A stretch of DNA of 40,223 nucleotides, taken from the NCBI GenBank assembly GCA_017477845.1, contig JAFUTR010000036.1, forward strand, positions 1 through 40,223, read 5' to 3'. Origin of the DNA: Bacilli bacterium (GTDB lineage Bacteria > Bacillota_I > Bacilli_A > RF39 > UBA660). Shown in pieces: positions 1 through 40,223 of this stretch (position 1 is its first letter; each line of letters begins with the position of its first letter). The notes under the pieces were generated by a model. That model saw only the letters and a list, made by a program, of their open reading frames with translations. It did not search any database and was not told where the DNA came from. The position numbers and the translations under genes are program-made.

Positions 1-140
1 ACTTCTTTAGTTAGTTTTGCTTTTTCATCTTCTAAAGTTGTATTTTTCAAGTTTAACTCTTCTACTTCTTTAGTTAGTTTTGCTTTTTCATCTTCTAAAG
101 TTGTATTTTTCAAGTTTAACTCTTCTACTTCTTTAGTTAG
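1..140. repeat. 63-bp in-frame tandem repeat, left end
   Basis: Two full identical 63-bp units (1-63, 64-126) and a 14-bp partial third (127-140). The unit is 21 codons on the minus strand, so copy number can change without a frameshift. The same unit fills 40102-40223. Bases 1-122 equal 40102-40223, so the window is probably a circular molecule opened in this repeat. A short-read assembly could have collapsed the copy number. Confidence 0.95.
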
Positions 141-254
141 TAATTCAATTTTTTTATTTAACTCTTTTATTTTTTTTGAATCATCTTTTTTTGTTTCAAC
201 TGGTTTTGCTTCTATATTTGAAACAAAACCGCCTATTACAGTTGGCTTACTCAT
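1..254 (-). CDS. Coiled-coil repeat protein between capsid and connector genes (5' part)
   Basis: Partial gene. It starts at ATG 252-254 behind a strong AGGAGGTAAG site and runs off the left edge in the frame that resumes at 40221-40223. The N-terminus is a short non-repetitive segment (MSKPTVIGGFVSNIEAKPVE), then a lysine-rich stretch, then 21-residue repeats containing VEELNLKNTTLEDEKAKL. Leucines fall every seven residues, with Val, Asn and Lys at the other core position, as in a dimeric leucine zipper. It lies between the major capsid gene and the first connector gene, a slot where many phages carry a small head accessory protein. A head decoration or assembly role is inferred from position only. 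Closing the circle by the 122-bp overlap gives about 105 residues; more repeats would lengthen it. Confidence 0.8.
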   Translation of the reverse strand, partial: MSKPTVIGGFVSNIEAKPVETKKDDSKKIKELNKKIELLTKEVEELNLKNTTLEDEKAKLTKEVEELNLKNTTLEDEKAKLTKE

Positions 255-20412: not shown

Positions 20413-20574
20413 TTAGATTTCATTCTGATTTACTAGTTCTTGTCCAACTAGTGAATCTTTTTTATTTGAATATTTTTCTTTTAAATACTCATTTAGATTT
20501 TTTATCATCTGTTTTGCTTCTTCCTTTGTTTTAGGATTTGTTACAATTACTTTTAATCTGTTTTTTTCTTGCAT
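20413..20574 (-). CDS. 53-residue protein
   Basis: MQEKNRLKVIVTNPKTKEEA, then KQMIKNLNEYLKEKYSNKKD. Weak ribosome site (AGAAG). The DNA near its 3' end has a 7-bp inverted repeat ACTAGTT/AACTAGT (20432-20452). The strand-helix start (RLKVIVTNPKTKEEA) is a recurrent pattern in small phage proteins; no function known. Confidence 0.5.
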   Translation of the reverse strand: MQEKNRLKVIVTNPKTKEEAKQMIKNLNEYLKEKYSNKKDSLVGQELVNQNEI

Positions 20575-20601
20575 ATTTTCTTCTGTTCTGTCGTGGTATT
20601 T

Positions 20602-20772
20602 TTAACTATGTGCTATACAGTAGGTTTCTGTATGTCCTGCTGATACACAGTTGTTTATTTCATTTTGGTTGTAGTTACTATCAAGACTTATTAATATAGT
20701 TAATGCACTTACAACCAAGATACTTGCAATTGTAACTTTTACCCATTTTTTTAATACTCTTTTTGTTTTCAT
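20602..20772 (-). CDS. 56-residue secreted or membrane-anchored protein
   Basis: Basic start MKTKRVLKKWVK, a hydrophobic segment (VTIASILVVSALTILISL), then a short outside part with two Cys (CVSAGHTETYC). AAAGGAGATAGAAAA precedes the ATG. No clear signal peptidase site, so probably an N-terminal anchor. Similar small anchored two-Cys proteins occur early in Bacillota phages; superinfection exclusion is a guess. Confidence 0.6.
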   Translation of the reverse strand: MKTKRVLKKWVKVTIASILVVSALTILISLDSNYNQNEINNCVSAGHTETYCIAHS

Positions 20773-21358: not shown

Positions 21359-21601
21359 TTAGTTTTGTTTTAAATTGTGATTATACTCACGAATTACTTT
21401 AAAAAAAATTAGCTCATCTACTTCATAATATTTTAATGCTTTTTCCAATAATTCTAAGCTCATGTCTTTAGCATCTTTTTCATATTTTGATAAAGTATTG
21501 AAGTGTATTCCTAAGTCATTGCTTGCTTCTACTACTGTTTTCTTTCGTTTGTCTCTTAGTGATTTTAATTCCTGTCCTATTAAAACACTATCTAAATACA
21601 T
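21359..21601 (-). CDS. Cro-like / antirepressor-type XRE regulator
   Basis: 80 residues from ATG 21599-21601, chosen because AAAGGAGGTGAAGC precedes it; a longer reading would start before this site. Helix-turn-helix LIGQELKSLRDKRKKTVVEA, SNDLGIHFNTLSKYEKDAKD. First gene leftward from the switch, the Cro position, so expected to shut off the repressor and commit to lysis. An operator-like sequence lies within its own 3' end (21377-21390). Confidence 0.82.
   Translation of the reverse strand: MYLDSVLIGQELKSLRDKRKKTVVEASNDLGIHFNTLSKYEKDAKDMSLELLEKALKYYEVDELIFFKVIREYNHNLKQN
21377..21390. promoter_or_regulatory. Third operator-like site inside the Cro-like gene
   Basis: GTGATTATACTCAC, one base from the perfect palindrome at 21637-21650. 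It is 260 bp from the other operators, a distance that would allow DNA looping. It is in coding sequence and could be chance, but the 13 of 14 match is notable. Confidence 0.45.
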
Positions 21602-21628
21602 TGCTTCACCTCCTTTCATCTTGGTAAC

Positions 21629-21657
21629 ATTATATCGTGATTATAATCACTTGTCAA
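21629..21657 (-). promoter_or_regulatory. Early lytic promoter with operator in its spacer
   Basis: Fully consensus leftward promoter: -35 TTGACA (21657-21652), 17-bp spacer, -10 TATAAT (21634-21629). The 14-bp perfect palindrome GTGATTATAATCAC (21637-21650) occupies the spacer, so repressor binding would exclude RNA polymerase. Confidence 0.85.
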
Positions 21658-22939: not shown

Positions 22940-22970
22940 AAAAAAAGACTAACTGCTGGAACAGTTAGTC
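22940..22970 (-). terminator. Intrinsic terminator, leftward
   Basis: 9-bp perfect stem, 6-nt loop, then TTTTTTT on the minus strand. There is no T tract on the plus side, so it serves leftward transcription, supporting the small RNA call. Confidence 0.75.
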
Positions 22971-23041
22971 AAACACAAGGACATAGAAAATGTCTTATGT
23001 AAGAAAAAAACTTATCTACCACGACAGATTTTTTTCTATGT
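22940..23041 (-). ncRNA. Candidate small RNA antisense to the integrase leader
   Basis: Minus-strand -10 TATAAT (23051-23046) with TTGCTC 17 bp upstream predicts a start near 23039-23041. The RNA begins in AAGGACATAGAAAA (23045-23032), which pairs perfectly with 22990-22977, and ends in a hairpin GACTAACTG-TTCCAG-CAGTTAGTC (22970-22947) plus seven T. About 100 nt with no ORF. The same 14-bp inverted repeat lies just upstream of a serine integrase, so an attP role is an alternative. Confidence 0.5.
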
Positions 23042-23080
23042 CCTTATTATATCAAAAAAAGTAATAAGGAGCAATGATTT

Positions 23081-24526
23081 ATGAATGAAAATTTTTTAGA
23101 TTTTGATAATTTATATAATGATTATTATATGAAATCAAACGAATATTTAACGAAATGTGCTTGTTATATTAGAGTATCTACTGACGATCAAGTAGAATAT
23201 TCTCCTACATCACAATTAAAATTAATACTTAAATATGCGTTGGATAATAATTTATTTATTAGCAAAGAAAGTATATTTCACGATGATGGAATTAGTGGAA
23301 CTAATAGTAAAAATAGAAACTCATTCTTAAAAATGATAGCAGTTGCTAAATCAAAACCTAAACCATTTGAAAAAATACTTGTGTATGACTTTAGTAGATT
23401 TGCTAGAAATAAAGAAGAATCAGTTATGTATAAGACACTCTTAAGGAAAAAATTAAAGATTGATATAATTAGTATTACTCAACCACTTACAGAAGGTAAA
23501 GAAAGGGTAATATTGGAATCAATGTATGAAGCTATGGACGAATACTATTCTCTTAACTTATCAGAAAACGTACAACGTGGAAAAAGAGAAAAAGCAGAAC
23601 GTGGAGAACACAATGGCTTTGCACCATTTGGATATAAACTAGTAAATAAGCAACTAGTCATCGATGAAGAAAATGCTAAATTGGTAAAAATGATTTATAG
23701 TATGTTTATTAATACAGAAAACATTAAGCATATTTGCAATACCTTGAATGACATGGGTATTAAATCTACTAGAGGAAAACTTTGGGGAAGAAAAACACTT
23801 AAACTCATTCTTACAAATAAGACTTATGTCGGTTTTGTAAAAAACGGACATAATTATTATAAAGGGTTACATGAACCGATAATAGATAGCGAAACATTTG
23901 AGAAAGTTCAAAAAATATGGAAATATAGAGATGAGCATTTTTCTAAATGTAGAGAACAGGTACAACATAATCACTGGCTAAGAGGAATTTTAAAGTGTGG
24001 TTCTTGCGGTTATGGCATGTACTATTTCAAAAGAAAAGATAGAGACTATGCTATCTTTCAATGTGGTGGCTATTTCCACGGCAGATGTGATTCACATTAT
24101 TTAAGAGTTGATGAAACTGAAAAAGTTATTATTGAGCAACTTAAAAATGATTATACCGAAAAAGTAGATATAAATGTGTCTAAGAATAATTCTAATACTG
24201 AATATGATATTGCTTTGTCTAATTTAAAATCATTAGAAAATAAACTTAATAGAGTTAAAGAGTCATATATAAATGGTATTGACACTTTGGAAGAATACAA
24301 GGATAATAAAAATAAATTACAACAACAAATTAAAATTATTAACAACAGAATAGAACAATTAAAAGAGCCATCAAAAGAAGTTGTATATAAAAAATGTGAA
24401 CAGGCGTACAAAATATTATCTGACGAAAAATCAGAAAAAGGTCTAAAATCAGAAATATCGCATGCTTTATTCGAAAAAATAGTATATTATAAAGACAGTG
24501 AAACATTAGCAATTACTTATAAATAA
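23081..24526 (+). CDS. int: Large serine integrase
   Basis: 481 residues. Resolvase domain with catalytic Ser33 in CYIRVSTDDQ, then FHDDGISGTN and LVYDFSRFARNKEES; recombinase domain GFAPFGYKLVNKQLVIDEEN; zinc ribbon LKCGSCGYGMYYFKRKDRDY with CGG and CDSHYL; C-terminal coiled coil (about 375-440). A short N-terminal extension of about 25 residues precedes the usual start. Catalyses attP x attB integration; excision would need a directionality factor, not identified here. attP is expected in the 140 bp upstream or the 80 bp downstream. Confidence 0.93.
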   Translation: MNENFLDFDNLYNDYYMKSNEYLTKCACYIRVSTDDQVEYSPTSQLKLILKYALDNNLFISKESIFHDDGISGTNSKNRNSFLKMIAVAKSKPKPFEKILVYDFSRFARNKEESVMYKTLLRKKLKIDIISITQPLTEGKERVILESMYEAMDEYYSLNLSENVQRGKREKAERGEHNGFAPFGYKLVNKQLVIDEENAKLVKMIYSMFINTENIKHICNTLNDMGIKSTRGKLWGRKTLKLILTNKTYVGFVKNGHNYYKGLHEPIIDSETFEKVQKIWKYRDEHFSKCREQVQHNHWLRGILKCGSCGYGMYYFKRKDRDYAIFQCGGYFHGRCDSHYLRVDETEKVIIEQLKNDYTEKVDINVSKNNSNTEYDIALSNLKSLENKLNRVKESYINGIDTLEEYKDNKNKLQQQIKIINNRIEQLKEPSKEVVYKKCEQAYKILSDEKSEKGLKSEISHALFEKIVYYKDSETLAITYK

Positions 24527-24540
24527 AGGATATTTTAGCT

Positions 24541-24586
24541 TGCATATAAGAGGAATATAACAGGAGTAAACTTCCTTTTATATGCA
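24541..24586. repeat. 15-bp inverted repeat after the integrase gene
   Basis: TGCATATAAGAGGAA (24541-24555) pairs with 24572-24586 over 15 bp with one G-T, around a 16-nt loop containing CAGGAGT. No T tract follows, so not a standard terminator. A TATAAT (24590-24595) follows directly. May be a regulatory hairpin for the HNH gene or an attachment-site arm. Confidence 0.5.
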
Positions 24587-40019: not shown

Positions 40020-40037
40020 ATCGATACCTCCATTTCT

Positions 40038-40223
40038 TTATTTTTTATTTTCTTTATCTGATGTCTTTGTTACTTCTTCAAGTTTCAAGTTTAACTCTTC
40101 TACTTCTTTAGTTAGTTTTGCTTTTTCATCTTCTAAAGTTGTATTTTTCAAGTTTAACTCTTCTACTTCTTTAGTTAGTTTTGCTTTTTCATCTTCTAAA
40201 GTTGTATTTTTCAAGTTTAACTC
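40038..40223 (-). CDS. Coiled-coil repeat protein (3' part, continues from 1-254)
   Basis: 61 codons plus TAA at 40038-40040. Two repeats and the final partial one, then LNLKLEEVTKTSDKENKK. The reading frame matches that of 1-254 across the ends, so both are one gene on a circular molecule. The stop is followed by GGAGGT for the adaptor gene. Confidence 0.8.
   Translation of the reverse strand, partial: ELNLKNTTLEDEKAKLTKEVEELNLKNTTLEDEKAKLTKEVEELNLKLEEVTKTSDKENKK
40102..40223. repeat. 63-bp tandem repeat, right end
   Basis: Units at 40102-40164 and 40165-40223 (59 of 63 bases before the edge), with a partial unit (40086-40101) to the left. Identical to 1-122. Confidence 0.95.

Follow-up and report, generated by a model that had tools for sequence, protein, structure and literature searches.

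The stretch of DNA analysed here (the window, 40,223 nucleotides) carries upstream of its large serine integrase gene (int) an element that is in all likelihood the gene of a trans-acting phage antisense RNA, which would block translation of an early lytic gene in the prophage. About 20 related phages carry their own, differently spelled, matching pair of RNA and target, so that the RNA very probably silences the lytic gene during dormancy of the virus.

Genome context

The window, contig C40 in an assembly of 1.56 Mb, looks like a phage genome. In rightward order it has a CI-like regulator, an ImmA-type peptidase, a BLIP-like protein, the small RNA element and the integrase; the late genes beyond int are transcribed leftward. 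A leftward lytic operon contains a cro-like gene, small ORFs and a DnaD-like loader. Both ends of the window (1–200 and 40024–40223) lie within one 63-bp tandem repeat, compatible with a circular phage genome opened inside a repetitive gene.

21359–21619, minus strand: cro-like HTH gene, in the same operon as the target described below and upstream of it (domain search)
21629–21657, minus strand: promoter of the leftward early operon, consensus TTGACA-17-TATAAT (promoter scan)
23081–24526, plus strand: large serine integrase with Resolvase, Recombinase and zinc ribbon domains (domain search)

A predicted small RNA gene upstream of the integrase

A leftward promoter, an inverted repeat and a terminator define a predicted RNA of about 100 nt, as the initial annotation had described.

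22940–23041, minus strand: small RNA gene, about 100 nt, predicted start at about 23039–23041 and end of the T-run at 22940 (promoter and terminator signals, fold, conserved layout)
23046–23074, minus strand: promoter with extended −10 TGATATAAT (23054–23046) and weak −35 TTGCTC (23074–23069), spacer 17 nt (sequence; TGnTAnAAT is kept here in relatives)
23032–23045, minus strand: 5′ arm of the long stem P1, TTTTCTATGTCCTT on the plus strand (14-bp perfect inverted repeat; covariation)
22977–22990, minus strand: 3′ arm of P1, AAGGACATAGAAAA on the plus strand (14-bp perfect inverted repeat)
22940–22970, minus strand: leftward intrinsic terminator, stem 22970–22947 followed by T7 (22946–22940) (sequence; kept in relatives)

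The −10 box TATAAT reported earlier at 23051–23046 of the minus strand is present; in addition it is extended by TG at 23054–23053 and has a poor −35 at 17-nt spacing. We also found the 14-bp perfect inverted repeat (22977–22990 and 23032–23045) and the terminator stem 22970–22947, whose T tract is on the minus strand only. The repeat had been placed at the predicted 5′ end of the RNA. It is real, but it is not wholly within the transcript, because the usual distance from −10 to +1 puts the RNA start inside the right arm, at about 23039–23041.

Folding of the minus-strand RNA gives z = −7.3, and none of 200 shuffled sequences is equally stable. There are four terminator-like sites in 6.8 kb against 1.0 expected, and the terminator of the RNA gene is among the two strongest. 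From these signals we infer transcription of the gene. A 24-aa plus-strand reading frame overlaps the element.

The Rfam search of the element gave nothing above the cut-off, and nine relatives had no match at E 0.01. The top match in the window was RF00238 (ctRNA_pND324), on the plus strand only and with 43 bits against a gathering cut-off of 45; membership was rejected due to the score and the opposite strand. Like the window RNA, ctRNA_pND324 has two hairpins; the family consensus closes with TTATTATATCA, complementary to the −10 region of the window RNA gene, so that the layouts look alike. Read in reverse complement, this end of the RF00238 consensus is an extended −10 promoter, a sign that the family model may run antisense to the actual transcript. 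The plasmid RNA differs from the window RNA also in that it regulates the replication protein repB.

Conservation of the RNA gene

Relatives of the window were collected among serine-integrase phages from 96% identity downwards. In many of them a leftward TGnTAnAAT box upstream of int is followed 60–150 nt on by a leftward terminator, and rightward terminators in this place are rare. The layout is kept in divergent phages, mostly with serine integrases and once with a tyrosine-type one: the RNA of L139 resembles that of L157, and by our own reading of the translation the L139 integrase looks tyrosine-type. The arrangement is absent from L149, from L155 and from the majority of distant clades. 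Among near relatives the genes upstream differ and homology begins at the terminator, and therefore the RNA gene and int appear to travel as a unit.

Conservation of the hairpins had been named as a check of the small RNA, and it speaks strongly for it: promoter, stem and terminator are kept upstream of int across divergent phages, the long stem with compensatory changes. Six of ten pairs of this stem are changed on both sides among seven phages of RNA family A, and 0/500 shuffles reach the score; because MAFFT alignments failed to align the RNA structure, the score was taken on stem arms chosen by hand and joined by an artificial spacer, and the hand choice favours paired cells, not two-sided changes.

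The terminator hairpin loop CTGTTCCAGCAG is common to many unrelated phage terminators (phage loci L024–L143). As a diagnostic motif it was rejected, since a scan finds many unrelated terminators with the same loop.

A different class of small RNA occupies the same place upstream of related serine integrases in L253–L268 and in L235 (Ruminococcus phage RG-TP1). Its parts are an TGATACAAT promoter, a UUCGG-loop hairpin and, after these, a leftward terminator rich in GC; the search for a trans match gave nothing strong.

Complementarity to an early lytic mRNA

Searching the window with the RNA gives one outstanding site, a 12-nt perfect complement of the loop UCUGUCGUGGUA located 2.5 kb away and absent from the initial annotation.

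23017–23028, minus strand: pairing loop of the RNA, UCUGUCGUGGUA (perfect complement of 20587–20598)
20587–20598, minus strand: target site UACCACGACAGA in the leftward early mRNA, ends 12 nt before the ATG, predicted unpaired (complement search; fold)
20413–20574, minus strand: target ORF, 53 aa, small-protein family I (LKVIVTNPKTKEE...) (ORF, family comparison)

Loop and target are on the same strand, and the target ORF is within the leftward cro-side lytic operon. The perfect run in the window is 12 nt only, and the site is beside a weak Shine–Dalgarno sequence (SD), not on it.

Searches of whole contigs of relatives give, in one phage after another, a site on the early-transcript strand, 1.0–2.5 kb upstream of int and perfect over 10–27 nt. 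RNA and target sequences vary between phages, yet each RNA matches its own target. In 19/19 phages the best complement of the phage's own RNA is on the early-transcript strand, i.e. in antisense orientation, and in 18/19 the own RNA ranks first for the own region when RNAs are swapped. None of 100 shuffles reaches the observed energy in 15 of the 19 phages and 1–4 of 100 do so in the other four, in a test that scores perfect runs only. The 19 phages represent 17 distinct pairs, because L015/L016 and L240/L241 are near-duplicates, and even these are not fully independent since the phages were found largely through one integrase superfamily, though loops and targets differ. A compensated A-to-G change in loop and target distinguishes L246 from L245, L248 and L249.

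Target sites lie where a small ORF that follows cro begins; in L240, L241 and L251 they are inside the first codons, and in L242 the site is about 75 nt before the small ORF. Many relatives have two to four pairing blocks beyond the apical loop. RNAs of family B form gapped duplexes (−43 to −56 kcal/mol) whose several blocks span about 70 nt and mostly take in the SD. The gene that follows the site in L150 and L139 encodes a membrane protein, and therefore the regulated protein is not identical everywhere.

A later set of host-family genomes with integrase relatives was examined after the rule had been fixed, and four of them had the RNA and enough upstream sequence. Three of the four (G005, G102 and G089, with integrases 38–40% identical to that of the window) have a match of 15–19 nt just before a family I small ORF; in G098 the RNA is present with no target site. 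A clear RNA was lacking in G038 and G083, and G072 and G097 did not qualify because their contigs are too short. By the shuffle, strand and swap tests and by the later genomes, the complementarity is better than chance and is maintained in evolution, as expected of a trans-acting antisense RNA.

Several known phages of Streptococcus, Lactococcus and Enterococcus have the layout and no long trans match. In S. pyogenes prophages 315.1 and 315.6 the place upstream of int is taken by the same extended −10, hairpin and leftward terminator, and the layout is shared by phages Javan645, phiKSM96 and 62501; no long trans match was found in any of these five.

Alternative explanations

The most serious alternative is a cis-antisense silencer. 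Here int mRNA would arise by readthrough from the immunity operon, and the RNA would pair with its leader to keep the integrase off in the lysogen, the early-operon match being secondary or absent. We regard this as possible, although less probable than action in trans. The RNA gene is positioned opposite the int leader, phages without a long trans match still keep the RNA, and in S. pyogenes four prophage integrases have expressed antisense RNAs upstream, for which this action has been proposed (PMC6431027). A cis silencer leaves unexplained, however, the matched complement in antisense orientation at the early small ORF. The earlier description of the RNA as antisense to the integrase leader is right as to position, but it is another mRNA, an early lytic one, with which complementarity has specifically been maintained. 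In the window the int SD is a possible pairing partner of the repeat's right arm (TCCTTATTA / TAATAAGGA); against shuffles such SD pairing is significant in L015/L016 only, and an integrase-SD switch was dropped as a general mechanism. Integrase silencing in cis may coexist with the trans role as a separate second one. It is very improbable that loop and target represent a duplicated DNA element, such as an operator or a recombination site, and not partners in RNA pairing. At the DNA level they are inverted repeats flanking the immunity region, but their orientation makes the transcripts complementary in every one of the 19 phages, and the shared segments are non-palindromic and vary between phages, one being at a start codon and the other in a transcribed loop. 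Equally hard to credit, and if anything slightly more so, is the view that the element is a terminator only, which stops leftward readthrough from late genes or the host, with promoter and repeat incidental. Late genes do run leftward beyond int and the terminator loop occurs in unrelated terminators, whereas conservation extends to a dedicated promoter at a constant distance, to the covarying stem and to the matched target.

Least probable of all, and close to dismissed, is the initial suggestion that the inverted repeat is the attP of the serine integrase, which the repeat adjoins. Host–phage junctions of relatives are downstream of int, not inside the repeat: by our own reading of the translations, host dus (tRNA-dihydrouridine synthase) in L018 and L019 and host ssb in L021 begin just 3′ of int, and G005 has host genes there, while in L018, L019 and L021 the upstream element stays joined to the phage immunity genes. 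Moreover, stem and terminator covary as RNA. A palindrome of about 47 bp, also absent from the initial annotation, stands just after int in the window and in L014, L015 and L016, as expected for attP.

24540–24586, plus strand: attP-like palindrome directly downstream of int (sequence; relatives join the host downstream of int)

L018 and L019, phages with the same integrase, are joined downstream of int to the dus genes of two different hosts at the same phage position (ATCAAT), which suggests that dus is the integration site of these phages. The palindrome of the window is opposite in orientation to that of the 96%-identical L014, both flanks keeping their orientation; this is either an inversion of the site alone or an assembly effect at the palindrome. 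In L014 it stands after the 107-bp terminal repeat of the contig (L202, L203).

Proposed mechanism and target proteins

For the preferred reading, an antisense RNA acting in trans, we propose the following. The prophage would make the RNA from its own promoter upstream of int. The apical loop, together with further blocks in many relatives, would pair with the translation-start region of the small post-cro gene in the leftward lytic mRNA, masking or neighbouring the ribosome-binding site, and translation of the early lytic protein or stability of its mRNA would be lowered. Pairing in the cell is plausible, the sign of regulation probably negative, and the role of the target protein presumably an early lytic one. 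Beneath the CI repressor, the lytic state would be locked a second time, at the RNA level, and the same RNA could act on a superinfecting relative too.

The small proteins fall into two families, with the patterns LKVxVxNPxTKE (family I) and KLIELYEKQENIKITYxIKKK (family II). Neither has a convincing Pfam or PHROG match, and the broad family II alignment was too divergent to serve as a search query. The families track the integrase clade and not the RNA family: family B RNAs are directed at a family I gene in L157, at genes of family II in L245, L248 and L249 and, in L139 with its tyrosine-type integrase, at the gene of a membrane protein. All contigs found by the small-protein search have the matching integrase clade.

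The proteins blocked by the RNA could be the recombination directionality factors of the neighbouring serine integrases, so that an RNA made beside int would set the direction of the integrase by shutting off the excision factor in the lysogen. We consider this rather unlikely. The tracking of integrase clades fits excision factors, and linked inheritance gives the same pattern; the site before a membrane-protein gene in L150 counts against it. A directionality factor of 72 aa is proven for this integrase class in Clostridium difficile, and sequence similarity among such factors is absent (PMC5025042).

Small membrane proteins are also encoded in the early operon, in the window at 20602–20772 (minus strand) and in the same operon of L157, L248, L249 and L251. 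Those of the relatives have a common C-terminal pattern, YTCxGGxxxxC...SKEVADYLGV. The membrane proteins adjoining the small target proteins belong to no Pfam or PHROG family.

Relation to known systems

Control of the lytic switch by RNA has been documented in a handful of phages, the majority with Gram-negative hosts. The C4 antisense RNA of P1/P7-type phages favours lysogeny through antirepressor control, by pairing close to where an early lytic gene starts. Likewise, the sar RNA of P22 is a small phage RNA that pairs near an early lytic gene start and favours lysogeny (PMC12197685). In contrast to C4 and sar, the RNA described here has its own promoter beside int, at about 1–2.5 kb from its target, a small gene that follows cro and is unannotated. 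The words integrase and excision are absent from a 2025 review of phage sRNAs (PMC12197685).

By position and signals the element belongs to the small RNA genes that lie upstream of prophage integrases and antisense to them (PMC6431027). RNA-seq in S. pyogenes has revealed such an antisense sRNA family upstream of four prophage integrases (SP119_SR034, SR071, SR086 and SR106), suggested to be integrase silencers (PMC6431027). These have the same position and orientation as the window RNA, and their expression is shown by RNA-seq; the link to prophages 315.1 and 315.6 is by position. Integrase silencing is the only role proposed for them, and no trans target is described; the literature searched was open-access, so that a trans mechanism published elsewhere could have been missed. 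The Lacto-int motif (Weinberg 2010, PMC2864571), which takes its name from the integrase, is listed as a candidate RNA of Lactobacillales and their phages; it was published as doubtful and has no Rfam model.

In phages of low-GC bacteria our results point to a recurrent, evolving RNA–target pair, the RNA being encoded beside int and directed against a small lytic gene that follows cro. This would give a specific function to the integrase-upstream antisense RNAs seen by RNA-seq, until now assumed to be integrase silencers only, and it flags unannotated small proteins as important enough for a lock at the RNA level. Should these small proteins prove to be excision factors, the RNA would couple immunity to integrase direction.
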